Assembly (NCBI GenBank): GCA_030037475.1
Contig: JASHRH010000229.1
Location: forward strand, 1 to 33,353
Length of the DNA stretch: 33,353 nt
Reading direction: 5' to 3'
From: Acidobacteriaceae bacterium
GTDB lineage: Bacteria; Acidobacteriota; Terriglobia; Terriglobales; Acidobacteriaceae
In this document: in pieces, positions 1 through 17,105 of the stretch
How positions within the stretch are numbered: position 1 is the stretch's first letter
Layout: the number at the start of each line of letters is the position of its first letter
The notes under the pieces: generated by a model
Database searches by the model: none
Told to the model about the DNA's origin: nothing
Seen by the model: only the letters and a program-made list of their open reading frames with translations
Program-made: the position numbers and the translations under genes

Positions 1-148
1 GGTGTTTTGGTACCTGACAGATTCCATGAGACTTCGTGCTCGTTACCGATTTGACATCCCCGTTACCTTCCAGTTAACGCGGCATGTGAGCCGGATTGGG
101 GGGAATCGGCCGTCGCCGCGGAGGTGGTGATACCCACCCTATTGCCCC

Positions 149-187
149 TTCGACTCGGTCGCTGCGCTCCCTCGCTCAGGGCAGGCT
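149..187 (+). repeat. 39-bp interspersed repeat, copy 1
   Basis: This copy matches 443-481 at 37 of 39 positions; the only differences are GC versus TT at 164-165. It contains a short self-complementary block (CCCT-cgctc-AGGG). A well-conserved, hairpin-forming repeat outside genes is what REP-like interspersed repeats look like, but only two copies are visible, so genome-wide repetition is inferred. Confidence 0.7.
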
Positions 188-308
188 CCAGCGGCGATCA
201 AGGTGAGGCACCCGGTGTTCGCCGAGATGAGAAAGATCTGTCTACCACCCCACCGCGCAAGCGCGTTGGGGACCCCGGTCGAGCCGCCCCTGAGGGCGTG
301 AAAGGGAA

Positions 309-333
309 AAGCTCTGCCGCGAGGACAGAGCTT
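309..333. other. Hairpin with 8-bp perfect stem
   Basis: AAGCTCTG (309-316) and CAGAGCTT (326-333) are perfect reverse complements around a 9-base loop. No T-run follows, so it is not a typical intrinsic terminator. Its role is unknown. Confidence 0.4.
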
Positions 334-442
334 CTCGATTTCAGGGTAGAAGGTGAGAGAAATTGGGGCAAGGGAAATCGGAGGGGCGGAGGGTACGGAG
401 GTAACCCGGTTCCTATTGTCGAGAGGGAACCGCAGGTCCCCA

Positions 443-481
443 TTCGACTCGGTCGCTTTGCTCCCTCGCTCAGGGCAGGCT
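443..481 (+). repeat. 39-bp interspersed repeat, copy 2
   Basis: Second direct copy of the repeat at 149-187, in the same orientation and 294 bp downstream. The pair brackets a segment with two further hairpins and lies just upstream of the lower-GC gene block starting at 649. Confidence 0.7.
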
Positions 482-648
482 TTCGGCTTTGTTTGCCGCT
501 ACCCCGCCGGGCCGTTCCTAGCAGCAAATCCGTGCGCACGTGCTGCCGCTGGCGGCTGGCCGTTTTTAACGGGCTGGCTCGGTTTCCTGATACGATATTC
601 CATCCCTTACCCCCAAACGCCATATGTCGCAGCATCCGGAGAGTCATC

Positions 649-1557
649 ATGGCCGATTTCCTGAGAAATTTTGGTATTGGGATTATCAATCTTCTTGGAG
701 TGGCGGTTCCAGGAGCATTGCTGATCGGATTGGCAATGTTCGGATTTTTATTCCCAATGACGGCTGTCTTGCTTAACCTATCCGGCAACTCCGTCTCGAT
801 GCATTGGCCAAGAGACTCGCACTGGGTCAACATCGCAACTGTTTGCGTTCATTTCTCAATCGCTATGTTCGCCGTTCTTTCCTACGTTGCGGGCTATATT
901 CTGCGGCTAACCTCTCCCGATGGGCTGGATCGAGCCAGCGTGGGCTGGATGCAGAAGAATGGAAATGCTAGTTTCGTAACGTCCCCAGATCGAATGGACA
1001 ACAAAGTTGAAAAGGACGGCAGAGCTTACAAGGATGCATTCCCCTATTGGGGCTTTGGCACCTTTTTGGAATTGTTGGGCCATGATGAGCTACGCGAGCA
1101 CGTAACCTGGACAGACCAGACTCCTCAGAAGTGCAGCAACTCCAGGGTGAACATGTGGAAAGGAGATATCGCCCTGTACTGCCCTGATCTCGCGGCTACG
1201 GTCAATTCCGAGGAAGCTCATGTTCGCCTTATGTCGGGCACATGGCTTGCTATTCGAACGACTAGCTGGGCTGTTGGAGCCTGCTGGATTTTGACCCTGG
1301 CGGCCTTACTGTTGCCGCACGTCCTCTCCTGGGATTGGTATGATTCGATTCATTTCAGAGAAAGCGCGTGGTTCTATGCGATCCAGCTATCCATCAGCAC
1401 CGCTATGTTGTTTGGAATGTCGTGGGCACAAACACACATCGTGATGTTGTTCCACAAAAAGAGAGTTGGGGAGCTCCTGCTGGTTTGCCACGCCAAGCAT
1501 CATGCCGATGAGCGGAAAAAACAAATGAATGGTAATGCCTCTCTCACGAATGCTTAA
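649..1557 (+). CDS. Four-helix membrane protein of unknown function
   Basis: Predicted 302-aa integral membrane protein that I do not recognise. Hydrophobic segments lie at about residues 11-43, 61-86, 203-225 and 239-265. The roughly 115-residue hydrophilic stretch between segments 2 and 3 and the basic tail (about 268-302) are then on the same side, probably the cytoplasm. I chose ATG 649 rather than the far upstream in-frame ATG at 124, because the translation before residue 176 of the long frame is low-complexity and overlaps nucleotide repeats. The gene is clearly less GC-rich than most of the window, as is the next gene. Its stop lies 16 bp before the preferred start of the glycosyltransferase gene, so the two are probably co-transcribed. 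A role in membrane or surface polysaccharide biology is only a guess from that neighbour. Confidence 0.7.
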   Translation: MADFLRNFGIGIINLLGVAVPGALLIGLAMFGFLFPMTAVLLNLSGNSVSMHWPRDSHWVNIATVCVHFSIAMFAVLSYVAGYILRLTSPDGLDRASVGWMQKNGNASFVTSPDRMDNKVEKDGRAYKDAFPYWGFGTFLELLGHDELREHVTWTDQTPQKCSNSRVNMWKGDIALYCPDLAATVNSEEAHVRLMSGTWLAIRTTSWAVGACWILTLAALLLPHVLSWDWYDSIHFRESAWFYAIQLSISTAMLFGMSWAQTHIVMLFHKKRVGELLLVCHAKHHADERKKQMNGNASLTNA

Positions 1558-1573
1558 CCATGAGGATAATTCC

Positions 1574-3322
1574 ATGTTTTTAGATCGTTCAAGGGGAAAA
1601 AGAGATTTCTCTTTCGCAAACGCTCTGTTCGGCCCGCGGGCCACAGCCCTGCGAGAAAAGCTCTGCTCAACCCGCCTGCGGCACCTAGTCTTCTGCTCCT
1701 TTGAGAACCGATTCGCAAGGAGCGGAGGACTGGCGGCTGTCGCTGTCAACACCCTTCCGTTTCTGAGAGAGACAAACCAACTTGAGTCTGCATCCCTAAT
1801 GACGCCGTTCTATCCATTTCTTATGGACGCTCAACGGCTGGAGTCCACGAATATTCGGTTTCGGGTTCCGTTCTCGGGAAGCTTAATCGACGCCGAGCTT
1901 CTCCGCAGCACGTGGTCGTACTCTGTTCCGCGCGTGGGTTCGCTGTTTGAATACTATGTGAAGGCAGAGGGCTTTTTCGGTGCAAAGAATCCGCTGAGGG
2001 ATCCTTATATCTATGTGGAGAGCAGCGCTGCAGAAAATGAACGGAGGATGCGGGAAAGCGCGCTCTTCTTCTGCGCGGCAGTGCCAGCCGCGCTTGAGGC
2101 CCTTGGGTTGGTGGAGGACGTGGTCCTACACCTCCAAGAGTGGCAAACGACCCTGACCGCATTCACCGCCAAGGAAGCAATGCTCAGAGGAACCTTGCAG
2201 TCCTGTGCGATTGTGCAGACGATGCACAATCCATACGATTGCTTCATGCCCATGGAAGAACTACAGAAGATTGTGACGGACTCGTCGTGCAGGCAATCCG
2301 TCGAGAGGCTCGCTGGAGATGGACTCACTGCCTACCAGATCGGGCTGTCTCTCGTGGATGCGCCGGTGGCGACTGTCAGTGAGCATTTTGCCCAAGAGCT
2401 CACGTCGGACATTCTACAGACCGAGCACTTTGCTCCGCACTTGCAGCACCTGTTCAGCAATGGAGTTGTGGGGATTAATAACGGTCCATTTGTAGGATTC
2501 TCGAGCATGTTCCCCAAACGCGAAGGGCATACGACACAAGAAATAGGTGAAACTAAACAGGAAGCACGAAGATCGCTCCTGAAAGTCCTGCACGAATACG
2601 CGCCGCCGGAACGATTCGGAGAGCTGACATACAGAGAGAATAGCATTCTGAAGCTTCCCGATGATGTTCCGATCATCGTTATGAGCGGGCGACTCGATCC
2701 GATGCAGAAAGGATATGACATCCTCATCGAGGCTCTGGAACGTTTTGCACCGGATGAAATCAAAGCCGTTCTGACGCCCTTAGCGATCAGAGACTCTGAC
2801 CTCGACTGCTTTCGGAAAGCGTCTGCAGGAACCTGCAAAGGAAACCTGGTCGTGTTTCCAATTCGGATGGCGCAGGGATATGTGGAACTACAAACAGGCA
2901 GCACGTTTGGCATAATGCCCTCTATTTACGAGCCATTTGGTGCGGCCATTGAGTACATGGCAAACGGGACGGTCAACGTCGCACGCCGGACCGGCGGTCT
3001 GGTTGACCAAGTGATTGATGCTGAGACCGGCTTCCTGTATCGGGAGGACGAGTCTTCGTACACGTCTGTCAACATCGAGAACTTTGCGGCAAACAGCGCG
3101 AATGTCCTGGCCCGGAAGAGGAACCTGTGGGCAAGAAGCATGGCAGATGCCCTTGAAATGACCCTCAGAAAGGCACTAGCTGTCTACCGGGAGCATCGTG
3201 AGGGCTACTACGAGATGATTCGCCGGGGATTCGAAAAGGCGGCAGAATTTAGCTGGGAGAAGAACGCAGGCGAATACTGGAAGGTTTATCGGATGGCAGT
3301 TCAGTTGAGAATTGACGGATGA
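1574..3322 (+). CDS. Glycogen/starch synthase-like glycosyltransferase (GT5-like, GT-B fold)
   Basis: Predicted 582-aa cytoplasmic retaining glycosyltransferase. Enzymes of this family move glucose from ADP- or UDP-glucose to a growing alpha-glucan. Family landmarks are in the expected order: an N-terminal SGGLAAV segment (50-56) corresponding to the K-x-GGL-x-DV nucleotide-sugar loop, HLQEWQT (186-192) corresponding to the HDWQT region, TMHNPYD (216-222), SGRLDPMQKG (371-380), and PSIYEPFG followed by RRTGGLVD (449-478), the typical GT5 acceptor/donor region. The loop lysine is Arg49 and the usual Asp is Ala55, so this is a divergent member and the donor is uncertain. ATG 1574 is preferred because GAGG at 1562-1565 lies 8 bases upstream; in-frame ATGs at 1529 and 1550 overlap the previous gene. 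GC is lower than in downstream genes, which suggests acquisition by transfer together with its partner. Confidence 0.8.
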   Translation: MFLDRSRGKRDFSFANALFGPRATALREKLCSTRLRHLVFCSFENRFARSGGLAAVAVNTLPFLRETNQLESASLMTPFYPFLMDAQRLESTNIRFRVPFSGSLIDAELLRSTWSYSVPRVGSLFEYYVKAEGFFGAKNPLRDPYIYVESSAAENERRMRESALFFCAAVPAALEALGLVEDVVLHLQEWQTTLTAFTAKEAMLRGTLQSCAIVQTMHNPYDCFMPMEELQKIVTDSSCRQSVERLAGDGLTAYQIGLSLVDAPVATVSEHFAQELTSDILQTEHFAPHLQHLFSNGVVGINNGPFVGFSSMFPKREGHTTQEIGETKQEARRSLLKVLHEYAPPERFGELTYRENSILKLPDDVPIIVMSGRLDPMQKGYDILIEALERFAPDEIKAVLTPLAIRDSDLDCFRKASAGTCKGNLVVFPIRMAQGYVELQTGSTFGIMPSIYEPFGAAIEYMANGTVNVARRTGGLVDQVIDAETGFLYREDESSYTSVNIENFAANSANVLARKRNLWARSMADALEMTLRKALAVYREHREGYYEMIRRGFEKAAEFSWEKNAGEYWKVYRMAVQLRIDG

Positions 3323-3483
3323 AACCTAGATCCCTTTTCACCACCGTCTACCCATCGGAACGAAGCGATAGTCTTCGCCAGGAAATCAGCCGTGATGACG
3401 GTGACAATGCCCTTTCAAGTCGGGTTGCCGGTGTGGTGCGGTCCGCATCGTGTCCCTCAAAGTTGGTTGCTGCCCTCCGAAGA

Positions 3484-3588
3484 ACACAGTGCTTACGCAC
3501 TGGCTGTTGGCGCTGTGTCGCGGTAGGGATACGGCTTACGCCGTATCCCCGCACAGATCCGGACGAGCGGATTTCTCGCATCCGGTCC
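3484..3588 (+). ncRNA. Candidate structured RNA with tandem TTAC-loop hairpins
   Basis: Two perfect hairpins share the same closed loop, C-TTAC-G: 3487-3502 (6-bp stem CAGTGC/GCACTG) and 3526-3549 (10-bp stem GGGATACGGC/GCCGTATCCC). A third, weaker one spans about 3559-3588. The segment CTGTGT at 3513-3518 can pair upstream with ACACAG (3484-3489), and its CTGTG part can instead pair downstream with CACAG (3552-3556), so two exclusive folds are possible. The strand is assumed from the flanking plus-strand genes. It matches no RNA family that I recognise; it may equally be a DNA-level repeat or a 3' end structure of the glycosyltransferase mRNA. Confidence 0.3.
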
Positions 3589-3833
3589 TGCCTCAGGCGG
3601 CGGCGCACAGACGACGCGGAGGATAAGGATGGCAGATGCGGGCCGGAGGGAGTCAGCGGCGGGCAACGCTGGTAACGGCGCCGTACGATTGCAAGATACT
3701 TATCAGCTCCATTTTCCATTGCCTCTCGGCCTGACCGCGCGCGAGCGACTCCGCCCATCAGGCACTCGGTTGCGGTAGTACGGCATGTCAGTTTCGACGG
3801 GATGACGGCTTTTTCTACTACAGAGAGTGAATG

Positions 3834-3894
3834 GATTCCGAAGGCGTGGGCCGCCGAAGACGAAGATTCGTCCGTTACAAAAATCTTCGGAATC
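3834..3894 (+). promoter_or_regulatory. Long inverted repeat upstream of the GGDEF gene
   Basis: GATTCCGAAG (3834-3843) and CTTCGGAATC (3885-3894) are perfect 10-bp reverse complements. Inside lies a perfect palindrome, GACGAAGATTCGTC (3859-3872), and its GAAGATT can alternatively pair with AATCTTC at 3882-3888. A possible -10 hexamer, TACACT (3909-3914), follows the right arm, so the repeat could be an operator over the -35 region. If transcription starts further upstream it could be a switchable leader. Confidence 0.4.
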
Positions 3895-3978
3895 TGCCAG
3901 CGCTGCGCTACACTCAGTCTCACCAGTACACAGCATCATCAGGCGGGCCCGGCTTTGGAGTCAGAACAGAGATTCCGG

Positions 3979-5469
3979 ATGAGACCTTCCGCGCTCATTG
4001 CCATCAGCGCCGGGATGATTCTTGTCCACGCCCTGCTCAATACGTTCTTTCACGGCGCCGGGTTCACCATCTCCTATCTGTCGTGGTCGTTCTGGTCGCT
4101 GGCGGCCACCCTGGCCTGCCTGTGGCGGGCACTGCACTGCCCTCGTTCGGTCCGCACCCACTGGTGGCTGGCTGCCGTTTCTCTGTTCCTCATCTTCTTC
4201 GCCGCAGCCATTGAGGCGCCCGCGGAGATCTTCTTCAAAGCCGTGCCCACCGTGGCCCAGGCCGGCGATTTCTTCTTCTTTTCTTCCTTCGTTCCGATCC
4301 TGCTCGCCCTCACGCTGCCGGAAGAAGGCATGCTGCTCCGTTTCACCTTCGTGCTGGACTGTCTCCAGGCCGCGGCCTGCGCGTGCCTCGCCTACACCGT
4401 CCTCTTCGGGGCGTTCCCTTTCAGCGGCGAGCCCGCGCAGGCCATCGCTTATGCGCCCCTGGAGTACACCTACGACACCGAGTACCTGGCCGTGGTTCTG
4501 ATCGCCGCGCTGCGCTATTTCCTCGGCACACGCAACACAGAGGACCGCTTTTTCTTCCGTTCCATTCTGCTGTACTGCTCGCTCTATGCCCTGTGCTCCG
4601 GGATCTATAACCATCACAACGGCAAATACACGCTCACCAACGGCATGGACGCGCTCAACGACATTCCCTCCGCGGCGCTGGCCCTCGCCGCGATCTTCGC
4701 GCCCGCCGCGATCGAATCTACGTCGAGCTTCGCCAGCCGCCGCGTGCTCGTCCGCCTCGTCGACAACGCGCGCCCGGTTTTCCTCTCGCTGGCGCTGATT
4801 GGCCTGAGCGCCGCAGTCGCGGTCCGCCACTTTGCCGCGGCCTTCGCGTTCATCTTCGGCGCCTTTATCCTCTACAGCCTCCGCGCCTCGATGCTGCAAA
4901 GCAAGGCAGAGCAGGCCCAGGCCTTACTGGAACAGTCGAACAGCCGCCTCTCCGCAATCGCGCTCCTCGACAGCCTGACCGGAATCACCAACCGCCGCGG
5001 TTTCGACGAGTGCCTCGCGCTGGAGTGGGGACGCGCGCAGCGGACCGGCCAGCCGCTCTCGTTGCTGCTGATCGACGTCGACCACTTCAAGCACATCAAT
5101 GACACGTATGGCCACCCGGCCGGCGACGAATGCCTCCGCTACGCCGTGCGGGTGCTGGGCGAAGCTCTTCGCCCTACTGATCTCATCGCGCGCTATGGCG
5201 GCGACGAGCTGGCCGTCCTTCTGCCGGAAACCGGCTCCGCCGGCGCGTCCACGGTCGCCGGCCGCATCCGCTCCGTGATGGCAAAGGACGTCCCCGCCGG
5301 AGCCTCATGCCCCATTACTGTCAGCATTGGCGTCTCCACCTGGGGTACAGAGGAAGACGCCGGCCCGGACCAGCTCGTTTCCGCGGCCGACCGCGCCCTC
5401 TACGCGGCCAAGCAGAACGGACGCGATCGGATCGAACTGGTGGACCTGCGCTCGATCGCGGCGAGGTAG
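3979..5469 (+). CDS. Membrane-anchored diguanylate cyclase (GGDEF domain)
   Basis: Predicted 496-aa protein that condenses two GTP into cyclic-di-GMP, the second messenger for biofilm and motility control. The N-terminal half consists of about eight hydrophobic helices up to roughly residue 290 and resembles an integral-membrane sensor. A short coiled-coil-like linker follows, then a complete GGDEF domain from DSLTG (331) onward. The active-site loop is GGDEL (407-411), a variant with Leu for the final Phe. The DVDHFKHIND metal/nucleotide segment is present. The inhibitory RxxD I-site (RPTD, 398-401) sits exactly five residues before the signature, so product inhibition is expected. ATG 3979 is chosen because it opens directly into the first helix; the in-frame ATG at 3802 would add 59 residues with no membrane or domain character and would cross an inverted repeat. 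The ligand sensed is unknown. Confidence 0.9.
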   Translation: MRPSALIAISAGMILVHALLNTFFHGAGFTISYLSWSFWSLAATLACLWRALHCPRSVRTHWWLAAVSLFLIFFAAAIEAPAEIFFKAVPTVAQAGDFFFFSSFVPILLALTLPEEGMLLRFTFVLDCLQAAACACLAYTVLFGAFPFSGEPAQAIAYAPLEYTYDTEYLAVVLIAALRYFLGTRNTEDRFFFRSILLYCSLYALCSGIYNHHNGKYTLTNGMDALNDIPSAALALAAIFAPAAIESTSSFASRRVLVRLVDNARPVFLSLALIGLSAAVAVRHFAAAFAFIFGAFILYSLRASMLQSKAEQAQALLEQSNSRLSAIALLDSLTGITNRRGFDECLALEWGRAQRTGQPLSLLLIDVDHFKHINDTYGHPAGDECLRYAVRVLGEALRPTDLIARYGGDELAVLLPETGSAGASTVAGRIRSVMAKDVPAGASCPITVSIGVSTWGTEEDAGPDQLVSAADRALYAAKQNGRDRIELVDLRSIAAR

Positions 5470-5578
5470 CTTCCCTCCCACCCTGTCGCCAACGACGGCG
5501 ACAATCACCCCACCATGCCAACTGCCTGCGTGCTGGGGCCCCGGATAAGAATGGGGCATCCGCGATTCGCTTTGAAGG

Positions 5579-6061
5579 CTAATTGCGCTCCCAGAAATGC
5601 GGCGGTTCGATGCCCAGCGCGCGGAGATACACGTATCCCTGGCCGCGGTGGTGAATCTCGTTGTCGATGGCGTACTGGAACATGCCGGTGCCGGTGTTCG
5701 TGTAAAAGCCGAAGGCGGTATCGGTTTCGGCGAAGCGGTGCGGCGGGATCTTCGGAAACGCCTCATCGATGGCCGCAGTCTGCTCGTCCCACAGGTGGAG
5801 CAGATCGGCCCTGGTGGTGGGTTTCTCGCCCGCGAACTTCTCCCACTTGCCGGTGGAGACGCCGTTGACGACCGGCATGCCCACGTTGATGCACTCGAAG
5901 GCCAGCTCGGCGAAGGGCCTCATGCCGCCGATTGAAAACTGAAAGAGCTTGTCTTCCGGGAAGGCTTCGATGGTGCGGCGGGTGAGCCGGCGATGCTCCT
6001 GCCAATGCTGTAACAATTCGTCGGCGGTCATCACGCTGACGGATTTCGTTTCTGTTGCCAT
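5579..6061 (-). CDS. DinB-family protein
   Basis: Predicted 160-aa four-helix-bundle protein of the DinB/YfiT-like superfamily, whose members are small, usually metal-binding and mostly of unknown role (some act as thiol S-transferases). The recognisable part is the C-terminal DNEIHHRGQ motif (133-141) followed by YLRALGIEPP. In metal-binding members a His normally stands at the Asn134 position and another in helix 2, where this protein has FECINVGM (55-62), so the canonical three-His site looks incomplete. A strong ribosome-binding site, GGAGG, lies 9 bases before the ATG. It is transcribed divergently from the WYL regulator across 96 bp and converges with the GGDEF gene, which suggests that the regulator controls it. 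Confidence 0.85.
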   Translation of the reverse strand: MATETKSVSVMTADELLQHWQEHRRLTRRTIEAFPEDKLFQFSIGGMRPFAELAFECINVGMPVVNGVSTGKWEKFAGEKPTTRADLLHLWDEQTAAIDEAFPKIPPHRFAETDTAFGFYTNTGTGMFQYAIDNEIHHRGQGYVYLRALGIEPPHFWERN

Positions 6062-6117
6062 TGTTGATTTCCTCCGTGTCGCCCAATTTGGGTTGAGAAC
6101 AGGCTACGAGACATTCC

Positions 6118-6132
6118 CGACAGAACATGTCG
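6118..6132. promoter_or_regulatory. Inverted repeat in the dinB-like/WYL divergent promoter
   Basis: CGACA-gaaca-TGTCG forms a perfect 5-bp inverted repeat around 5 bases, in the 96-bp region between the divergent DinB-like and WYL genes and 25 bp before the regulator start. This position suits an operator for the HTH-WYL protein. No binding is shown. Confidence 0.35.
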
Positions 6133-6157
6133 TAAATTGGAGCGAGGCTGAATATTC

Positions 6158-7141
6158 ATGTACGACCCGATTCTGCGCGTGCTGACGGTGCTGGAGATTC
6201 TGCAGGCACGCGAATCCGTGACCGGAGCGGAGCTGGCTGAGCGGCTGGAAGTGGACCTGCGCACGGTGCAACGGTACATTGTACGGCTGAAGGATCTGAA
6301 GATTCCGGTCGAGTCGTCGCGGGGCGTGGGCGGCGCGTACCGGTTGCGGCCTGGGTATCAGCTGCCGCCGCTGCTGCTGACGAATGAGGAGGCATTTGCG
6401 CTGTCGCTGGGGCTGCGGGCGCTGCGGCAGGTGGGCCTGGCGGCGTTTGCTCCGGCAACCGAGGGCGCGCTGGAGAAGCTGGGGCGCGTGCTGCCGGCGG
6501 CGCTGCGGGAGAGCCTGCGGACGGTGGAGGACGTAGTCGCCATCGAGCCGGGACCATGGGTGGTGTCGACGTCGGTGGAGGCGCTGATGCGGGCAGCGAC
6601 CGCGATCCGCAGCGGGCGACGGGTGCGGTTTCGGTACCGCTCGCATAGCGGGCGGATGTCGCAGCGTCAGATTGAGCCGTGGGCGGCTCTGCATACGGAT
6701 GGGCGGTGGTATCTGATCGGGTATTGCCTGACGCGGCGGGCACCGCGAACCTTTCGGCTGGATCGGGTGACGGACCTGGAGCTGTGCGCGGAGAGATTCC
6801 GCCGGCCGGCGGACTTCGACGCGCGGCAGTACCTGGCGGAGCACATGCCGTTCGTGCAGACGGACTACCAGATCGACGTGTGGATCGACATGCCGGCGGA
6901 AGAGGCCGAGCGCAGCTTCGCGCCATGGAGGATTGCCACCGAACCGGAAGGCGAGGGAACGCGGCTGCGCTGCGGGCGCGATCGGCTGGAGCTGTTTGCG
7001 GCGATGCTGCTGAGCCTGGGGCGGAGGATCGTCGTGCACAGTCCGGCGGAACTGCGAGAGACGTTCCGGCAACTGGCGCGGCAGGCGACGGAGGCTGCGG
7101 GCCGTGGAACCGCTCGAAAAGCAGCGGCAAGGAGCGGGTGA
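6158..7141 (+). CDS. HTH-WYL (YafY/DeoR-type) transcriptional regulator
   Basis: Predicted 327-aa DNA-binding regulator. Residues about 3-60 form an N-terminal winged helix-turn-helix of the HTH_11 type (GAELAERLEVDLRTVQRYI), followed by GVGGAYRLRPGYQLPPL, typical of YafY-like regulators. The WYL domain is in the middle, with the diagnostic DGRWYLIGYCLTRR segment and the nearby FRLDRV. A WCX-like C-terminal extension (about 240-310) completes the architecture. WYL domains are thought to bind ligands, in several studied cases nucleic acids or nucleotides; none is known here. The only obvious target is the divergent DinB-like gene, through the shared 96-bp region with an inverted repeat. It converges with rsmI. 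Confidence 0.9.
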   Translation: MYDPILRVLTVLEILQARESVTGAELAERLEVDLRTVQRYIVRLKDLKIPVESSRGVGGAYRLRPGYQLPPLLLTNEEAFALSLGLRALRQVGLAAFAPATEGALEKLGRVLPAALRESLRTVEDVVAIEPGPWVVSTSVEALMRAATAIRSGRRVRFRYRSHSGRMSQRQIEPWAALHTDGRWYLIGYCLTRRAPRTFRLDRVTDLELCAERFRRPADFDARQYLAEHMPFVQTDYQIDVWIDMPAEEAERSFAPWRIATEPEGEGTRLRCGRDRLELFAAMLLSLGRRIVVHSPAELRETFRQLARQATEAAGRGTARKAAARSG

Positions 7142-15680: not shown

Positions 15681-16475
15681 CTACGCCGAGACAGCGAGGC
15701 CGGCCGCGGGGCGCGCGACCACCGTCGCCGCCACCGGCGCCGCGCCGTGATGCGTCAGCCGGTGCACGAAGTGGTACGGCGGCCACGGTCCCGAGAGCTG
15801 CATCTGGCAATCTTTCATCAGCAGCGCCGCGCTCGAATACTTGTTCTGGTACCGCTCCACCGCGCCCGAATCGATCAGGTGCGCGATGTCGAGCAGCATC
15901 TTGCCCGTGTCCAGCCTCCGGCAGCTTACCTCCTCCGCCAGGGGCAGGAACATGCGGTGCATCTGCACGGTCACCGCGCGCGCCTTGGTTTGCCGCTCCC
16001 GCTGGAGCGCCGCGTTCTCCCGCAGGTTCGAGAGATACGCGCGTCCGGTTGAGGACGATGGTGGCGCATTGTAGCGCCGGATCTGCTCGCGGCAGCAGTC
16101 GTCCAGCACCACCTTCAGGTGCATCTCCGCTTTGCCGCGCAGGCGTTCGATATTGGTCACAAACTGCCGCTGGTTGGAGCGAATCGAGCGGCGCAGGGCC
16201 TCGTCGTCCGCAAATACGGTTCCAAATCGGAACGGCAGCACCGTGGAAGTCCTGAAACAATCGGAGATCACCCGGGCGTGCTCCATGCCGGCCTGCTGGG
16301 TGAGGGTTTCGGTTGAGGAATATTCGCTGACGATAACCGCTAAATCACTGGCTGGGTAAAGGAAAACCTGATTTCCCTGCACTCCGGTGACGGCTTCCAT
16401 TGGAATTGGTTTCCGGTGCCGAAGCAACTCAGGAAAGGCTTGTCTTTCTGTTATGCAGTAGGCATACCACGCCAT
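15681..16475 (-). CDS. GvpL/GvpF-family gas vesicle protein homologue (orphan)
   Basis: Predicted 264-aa protein of the GvpL/GvpF family. In gas-vesicle producers these proteins are minor or accessory components needed for vesicle assembly and bind the shell protein GvpA. Diagnostic stretches are WYAYCITE at the start, VLPFRFGTVFADDEALR (79-95), the GKAEMHLKV strand (114-122) and, near the end, KDCQMQLSGPWPPYHFV, matching the sGPWPPYsF block of the family. No gvpA, gvpN, gvpK or other gas-vesicle gene is in the window, so the role here is open. ATG 16475 has GGAG 9 bases upstream; the longer frame to 16637 is rejected because the family start lies at MAWYAYC. It is divergent from a winged-helix regulator. 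Confidence 0.85.
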   Translation of the reverse strand: MAWYAYCITERQAFPELLRHRKPIPMEAVTGVQGNQVFLYPASDLAVIVSEYSSTETLTQQAGMEHARVISDCFRTSTVLPFRFGTVFADDEALRRSIRSNQRQFVTNIERLRGKAEMHLKVVLDDCCREQIRRYNAPPSSSTGRAYLSNLRENAALQRERQTKARAVTVQMHRMFLPLAEEVSCRRLDTGKMLLDIAHLIDSGAVERYQNKYSSAALLMKDCQMQLSGPWPPYHFVHRLTHHGAAPVAATVVARPAAGLAVSA

Positions 16476-16638
16476 ATAAAGTCGCTCCGCATGCTGATTT
16501 GTGAGTGGGTTAGGAACAGCAGCTTTCCGGGGGTATACATGGCTTTTTTGGCTCGGGCAGGCACCAAAACTGCGGAGGAGCCTCACTGAACTGCCCCGTA
16601 TCCTAGTCCCCGCCAGCAACGCCTGGCAACAGCGCAAC

Positions 16639-16662
16639 CCTTCCGGCTACGGAAGGTTAGCC
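16639..16662. other. Hairpin with an alternative fold in the divergent region
   Basis: CCTTCCG (16639-16645) and CGGAAGG (16650-16656) form a perfect 7-bp stem with a GCTA loop. GGCTA (16645-16649) can instead pair with TAGCC (16658-16662), destroying the first stem. On the minus strand it would lie in the leader of the GvpL/F-like gene. No known riboswitch consensus fits. Confidence 0.3.
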
Positions 16663-16680
16663 ATGGAAAACGATTTTGCT

Positions 16681-16686
16681 TTGACA
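16681..16686 (+). promoter_or_regulatory. Consensus -35 element TTGACA
   Basis: A perfect TTGACA opens the AT-rich stretch upstream of the winged-helix regulator. The hexamers at the usual 16-18 bp spacing (around 16703-16710) match TATAAT poorly, so the -10 is unclear. A TATTAT/TATAAA tract at 16747-16755 is a separate candidate. Confidence 0.35.
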
Positions 16687-16742
16687 ATATAAAAATTATT
16701 TCTTCAATATCGAAAATAACTGAAAAGATTCCCAGATAATAT

Positions 16743-16774
16743 TCTCTATTATAAAGAGTACTTCGTAATAGAGA
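16743..16774. promoter_or_regulatory. 9-bp inverted repeat, candidate operator
   Basis: TCTCTATTA (16743-16751) and TAATAGAGA (16766-16774) are perfect reverse complements around 14 bases. The left arm runs into a TATTATAAA tract that could be a -10 region, and the right arm ends 22 bp before the preferred start of the regulator gene. This geometry suits autorepression by the dimeric winged-helix protein encoded next to it. Confidence 0.5.
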
Positions 16775-16796
16775 GTTTCCCGTGACTGGGAGAGAT

Positions 16797-17105
16797 ATGC
16801 CTGAGCTGCCGGAGTTGAATCCCGTGATCCACGGCAAGCTGCGCCTCGCGCTGCTTTCGCTGCTCGCGGGCGTCGACGAGGCGGAGTTTACCTGGCTGCG
16901 CGCGAAAACGGGCTCGACTGACGGCAATCTCGGCGCGCAACTCATGAAGCTCGAAGAGGTCGGTTACGTCACGGTGGAGAAGCGGTTTGTGCTGCGCAAG
17001 CCGCAGACACTCTACCGCATGACGGAGCTCGGCCGCAGCGCCCTCGCCGAATATGTCGCGGCGCTGAAGAAGCTGCTGGGAGGAATATTGGCAAGCAGTC
17101 AATGA
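16797..17105 (+). CDS. Winged-helix DNA-binding regulator (HTH_34-like)
   Basis: Predicted 102-aa regulator related to MarR/ArsR-type winged helices of the HTH_34 class. It reads NPVIHGKLRLALLSLL, then a recognition region TGSTDGNLGAQLMKLEEVGYVTVEK and the wing KPQTLYRMTELGR, ending in a helix (SALAEYVAALKKLL) suited to dimerisation. There is no sensor domain. ATG 16797 has GGGAG 4 bases upstream; a GTG at 16782 in frame would add five residues and has GAGAG 6 bases before it, so the exact start is uncertain. The most likely targets are its own promoter and the divergent GvpL/F-like gene. Confidence 0.85.
   Translation: MPELPELNPVIHGKLRLALLSLLAGVDEAEFTWLRAKTGSTDGNLGAQLMKLEEVGYVTVEKRFVLRKPQTLYRMTELGRSALAEYVAALKKLLGGILASSQ

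Follow-up and report, generated by a model that had tools for sequence, protein, structure and literature searches.

A probably transferred two-gene block in an Acidobacteriaceae genome encodes a GT5-like glycosyltransferase of a clade separate from GlgA and a rare membrane protein

The closest described relatives of the enzyme considered here, P0002, are the GlgA glycogen/starch synthases of CAZy family GT5 (TIGR02095; structures 2qzs, 3fro, and 6gne), with which it shares the GT-B fold over its residues 34-579, the Pfam domains PF08323 and PF00534, and the catalytic positions. P0002 differs from GlgA in that identity in the structural alignment is only about 20%, the GlgA profile gives less than half of its cut-off score, there is an N-terminal extension of ~35 residues and a longer linker before domain 2, the EPFGAA[IV]EYM motif is shortened, and glycogen-gene neighbors are lacking in the scanned loci. 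Among PDB sequences, its best match is the archaeal GlgA of Pyrococcus (2bis, 3fro; 6e-11, or 2.1e-16 with a profile); the two have the GR[LF]D..QKG and EPFG motif forms in common, whereas the Pyrococcus motif after EPFG is one residue longer. According to a published review (PMC11046441), archaeal GT5 enzymes use ADP- or UDP-glucose as donors or, in the case of P. furiosus, GDP-glucose. We recognized no publication on the clade of P0002 in the open-licence literature.

The window, i.e., the whole stretch of 33,353 nucleotides analyzed (G000:C378:1-33353), comes from a draft MAG of 3.8 Mb in 453 contigs that is 88.8% complete. Close to its left end, two intact open reading frames (ORFs) lie on the forward strand where an earlier note on this DNA had placed them, 16 bp apart: P0001 (649-1557), a membrane protein of 302 aa with probably four transmembrane helices and the motifs PG, FPY, and EAH[VI]RL..[GS]TW; and P0002 (1574-3322), a GT5-like GT-B glycosyltransferase of 582 aa from a separate clade. 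A mechanical ORF list starts P0002 at 1529, but we prefer 1574 because an AGGA-like ribosome site, recognized by eye, precedes it. Sigma-70-like promoters were not found in window positions 480-3900. The GC content of P0001 and P0002 was 0.508 and 0.539 (GC3 0.586 and 0.612), respectively, as against 0.646 ± 0.023 (mean ± SD; minimum 0.583) for a host yardstick consisting of the 69 longest non-overlapping ORFs of at least 200 aa, some of them probably spurious, from five other contigs of the assembly and the rest of the window. In codon-fit score, counted from the bottom, the two genes ranked 4 and 5 of 70 (z -2.2 and -1.8); three and four yardstick ORFs score lower still, which makes codon fit by itself a weaker argument than GC. 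The per-gene GC and codon analysis that the earlier note proposed thus bore out its claim of two genes of lower GC, with codon fit being low too and less decisive.

P0002 matched Pfam PF08323 (Glyco_transf_5) with 55.6 bits over residues 39-280, well above the cut-off of 22.7, and PF00534 (Glycos_transf_1) with 50.3 bits. Against the NCBIfam GlgA model TIGR02095, it scored 133.3 bits over nearly its full length and did not reach the cut-off of 328.45, and all seven members of the enzyme alignment (A1) matched this model at E ≤ 0.001. The earlier wording, "divergent GT5-like," is supported in part. A structural model of P0002, built from seven sequences (mean pLDDT 77.5), had as its best structural matches starch synthase IV (6gne_A; Z 27.6, rmsd 3.4, 458 residues) and Escherichia coli GlgA (2qzs; Z 26.1).

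A quick 41-row tree split 32 enzyme rows from nine GlgA rows with an SH-aLRT of 100, and the branch to GlgA had a length of 3.46. The host's own GlgA clustered with those of congeners, while P0002 was sister (support 97) to the enzyme of locus L026, a row marked as long-branched and compositionally odd. Both the tree and a census of motifs omit L113, where the enzyme lies in two frames, and L114, where it is cut by the contig end; the census comprised 32 family rows and seven GlgA rows, with L013 not included and L019 having failed the pattern. The second TGGL motif and the positions of catalytic His, Arg, Lys, and Glu residues follow the GlgA literature and were aligned to the GlgA of the host family. 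Residues H186, W190, H218, N219, R373, K379, E453, and R471 and the TGG at 473-475 were invariant in 32/32 family rows and equal to those in 7/7 GlgA rows. Position 189 was E in 30 and D in two of the 32, where GlgA has D. The first-motif Lys position is R49 in P0002; 17 family rows had K there and 15 had R, and R also occurred in two of the seven GlgA rows. Judging from catalytic residues identical to those of GlgA, P0002 is probably an active enzyme, and these same residues do not tell its donor or acceptor. On the nucleotide side, EPFGAA[IV]EYM was found in 32/32 family rows and is one residue shorter than the GlgA motif before the following GT; such family-wide changes, which include F for C and A for L, suggest another donor or acceptor.

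The host carries an ordinary GlgA on another contig (C361; 526.3 bits to TIGR02095, cut-off 328). Neither a branching enzyme, a phosphorylase, nor an ADP-glucose pyrophosphorylase was present among the window neighbors scanned, and no glycogen genes were detected among 20 scanned neighbors of six enzyme loci, most other neighbors having been clustered without naming. The proposal that this is not a normal glycogen locus agrees with these observations.

We also examined how the enzyme is distributed. No P0002 orthologue was found in 11 congeners (best match 3.4e-8, to generic glucosyltransferases), nor in samples of 395 further genomes from the phylum (E ≤ 1e-15) and, using a profile, 396 further ones from the order (E ≤ 1e-60). 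Conversely, a one-protein scan of genome contigs returned orthologues with 47-53% identity to P0002 in the alignment from six MAGs, of which two belong to Nitrospirota and one each to Thermodesulfobacteriota, Caldithrix, Aminicenantes, and a further bacterium. When the 229 genomes taken, by inferred kinship, as the nearest relatives of the Nitrospirota genome G449 were searched with a profile (E ≤ 1e-50), 30 contained the enzyme family. The block thus deviates in composition and is missing from close relatives, both marks of a horizontally acquired island, and horizontal acquisition, the foreign origin suspected earlier, is well supported. A viral or plasmid origin was considered and rejected: viral contigs held no relative of P0001, P0002, or either family alignment; P0002 had only seven distant, GlgA-like matches (<60% identity) in phage records and sixteen in plasmids; and P0001 matched nothing in plasmids or phages, with one of its relatives likewise lacking a plasmid match.

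The surroundings of the enzyme were compared across a Nitrospirota set of 29 loci (L023, L024, and L088-L114, with G981 left out; L108 and L114 have <200 bp upstream). At 21/29 loci, a same-strand REC-HD-GYP gene lay no more than three genes upstream, and an HD-GYP motif occurred in one of the two upstream genes at twenty. Upstream HD-GYP was absent at the Thermodesulfobacteriota, Caldithrix, L026, and window loci, L028 being without upstream sequence; the window does not show this linkage and has a GGDEF gene downstream of P0002 instead. Given that the enzyme usually follows this response regulator, whose HD-GYP domain is of cyclic-di-GMP phosphodiesterase type, in the Nitrospirota set, a tie of its activity or expression to signaling is plausible there, a link that consists of synteny among related genomes. 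At three of the 29 loci, a gene for a membrane protein with two helices (246-248 aa) lies upstream of the GT5-like gene, by 17 bp in L089 (7369-8109), 15 bp in L090 (8101-8841), and 13 bp in L099 (7339-8079); the one member scanned had no Pfam match. We considered this protein as a relative of P0001 and rejected the idea, there being no similarity (hhalign probability 0.1%). At L026, a gene for a PfkB-type kinase overlaps the end of the enzyme gene. At eight loci, a gene of ~800 aa with membrane stretches (e.g., L103 4500-6971) precedes the enzyme by two or three genes, presumably resembling spermidine-synthase-like membrane proteins; the one scanned had no Pfam match.

For P0001, a four-helix membrane protein had been proposed. 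Three strong hydrophobic stretches (24-42, 62-80, and 208-226) would account for three of the helices, while the fourth is only plausible: a long helix at 237-301, which would hold it, appears in a single-sequence model of low confidence (mean pLDDT 49.7). P0001 belonged to no family in Pfam, NCBIfam, PADLOC, or PHROGs and had no meaningful match among PDB sequences. No relatives were found in 296 other genomes of the phylum searched with the single protein, in 395 others searched with a four-row profile, or in 197 other relatives of the Aminicenantes MAG G453. When the six enzyme-bearing genomes were searched, three relatives were recovered, all in G453: a tandem pair on contig C544 (E 2.4e-17 and 3.4e-16) and one on C441 (4.7e-8). 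Two of these proteins are 27-29% identical to P0001 over most of their length and the third 23%, and the three, from loci L063 and L064, share its PG, FPY, and EAH[VI]RL..[GS]TW motifs; unlike P0001, they are not encoded beside a GT5-like gene, their contigs being different from that of the enzyme. The relative on C441 (L064 86-1060) overlaps a YkuD L,D-transpeptidase gene (1057-1806). P0001 thus represents a real but rare family.

The block lies, as the earlier note had it, between a repeat-bearing region and a structured intergenic region, which proved to be genus-wide repeats within positions 1-558 and the degenerate 3' end of a group II intron at 3517-3589. The left flank (1-558) consists largely of interspersed repeats: parts of 39-489 recur elsewhere in the assembly, on other contigs, and parts of 130-558 recur in congeners, the copies being only 73-95% alike. 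It includes a direct repeat of 43 nt (145-187 and 439-481), and segments 299-404 and 428-488 are repeat units with many copies across the genus. The contig starts at window position 1, only 0.65 kb from the block, and the left neighbor is thus hidden. To the right, 3517-3589 on the reverse strand scored 29 bits (E 0.001) against the domain V/VI model RF00029, whose gathering score is 40. The longer segment, 3517-3662 on the same strand, which adds adjoining intron sequence, is 84-85% identical to segments of the congeners G006 and G008; since those copies score 47.9 bits, we file it as a group II intron relic. The G006 copy adjoins a reverse transcriptase gene. Next come a diguanylate cyclase gene (GGDEF; 3802-5469, forward; PF00990, 159 bits) with a host-like GC of 0.639, then a DinB-family gene (5579-6061, reverse; PF05163) and a gene for a WYL-domain regulator common to congeners (6158-7141, forward; PF13280), the last two forming the first stretch that shares its order with congeners. 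Window positions 5576-7099 matched five congener loci at 70-88% identity, and none of the congener matches listed (25 candidates scored per genome) fell in 560-3514.

Among the ORFs scanned in window positions 1-6100, no integrase or transposase was recognized, and direct repeats flanking the block did not exceed 7 nt, with the contig ending on the left. An inverted repeat (643-663 and 3379-3399; 19/21 bases complementary) brackets the block and includes the P0001 start codon. With a score of 15, it comes close to the average best score obtained when the whole 4 kb was shuffled 40 times (13.3, SD 2.1), and we rejected it as a pair of transposon ends; it did beat 2000/2000 shuffles in a flank-only comparison, for which the flanks had been chosen after the repeat was seen. 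In the congener G001, the DinB gene has a copy of the 429-488 repeat ~80 bp away, which we do not accept as proof of an empty site because the repeat is interspersed. The location of the block, next to remnants of an intron and of repeats, is consistent with a variable region. Elsewhere in the window, a lone GvpL/GvpF-family gas vesicle gene (15681-16637) adjoins a GC dip at ~16201-16800.

Do P0001 and P0002 form a dedicated two-component system, in which the membrane protein anchors the enzyme and the two together make or export a membrane-linked alpha-glucan? We consider this quite unlikely. The 16-bp spacing and the low GC of both genes would suit such a system, as would the parallel arrangement at three of 29 Nitrospirota-set loci, where a membrane protein stands 13, 15, or 17 bp upstream, but that two-helix protein is without similarity to P0001. 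Moreover, when the pair was searched in other genomes, P0001 stood beside the enzyme in the window only (1/34 enzyme loci), with no relative near any of the 33 others, and we therefore rejected the pair as a conserved system, lack of co-occurrence elsewhere being what the earlier note had named as an argument against a functional pair. The sole other genome found with the P0001 family also has the enzyme, i.e., 1/6 enzyme-bearing genomes compared to 0/592 others sampled (Fisher p 0.010), a weak sign of association, since a single genome carries the test and only some of the 592 were checked for the enzyme; in that genome the relatives sit on contigs other than the enzyme's, one of them overlapping the YkuD gene. 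Nor did the capsule, phage, or defense neighbors envisaged earlier appear: PADLOC 2.0.0 gave no match at E ≤ 1 for P0001 or P0002, PHROGs only a weak glycosyltransferase match for P0002, and Pfam none of these among the scanned window neighbors.

A simpler account would have P0002 as a second glycogen synthase, gained by transfer and redundant with the host GlgA, with P0001 as a passenger. Its GT5 fold, its catalytic residues, and the GlgA profile match over nearly its whole length speak for this account, which we nevertheless regard as unlikely in view of a score far below the TIGR02095 cut-off, the long branch to GlgA, and the altered, shortened EPFGAA[IV]EYM motif throughout the family. It is highly improbable that the block is an assembly or binning artefact, with DNA of another organism joined into the contig. 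The assembly is a draft MAG, repeats lie on either side of the block, and a contig end is nearby, but repeats whose copies are this dissimilar offer poor grounds for mis-joining, and two mis-joins would be needed because both flanks are of host type.

The reading we favor, and hold to be moderately probable, is that of a horizontally acquired accessory block with a GT5-like glucosyltransferase acting beside the host GlgA. The block would have come from a lineage of lower GC and landed in a variable stretch that contains repeats of the genus and remnants of a group II intron. P0001 and P0002 are probably co-transcribed, given the 16-bp gap. P0002 would be a retaining glucosyltransferase, soluble and working alongside the host's normal GlgA; it would draw its glucose from a nucleotide sugar and attach it in alpha linkage to an alpha-glucan or related acceptor, and P0001 may anchor or regulate it at the membrane, a pairing that would be specific to this lineage. 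A broader version strikes us as improbable, namely, that this is a GT5 branch, common in one Nitrospirota group and spread by transfer, that makes a non-storage glycan at the membrane, is tied to cyclic-di-GMP via REC-HD-GYP, and has repeatedly been given a co-translated membrane partner (the two-helix protein in some Nitrospirota, the unrelated P0001 here).

For the window itself, the result is a modest one, an accessory gene gained by transfer in a host that already has an ordinary GlgA. Since the enzyme is present in 30/229 relatives of a Nitrospirota genome, beside a signaling gene, the clade is testable there. If it is active with another donor or acceptor, the known scope of GT5 enzymes would widen.
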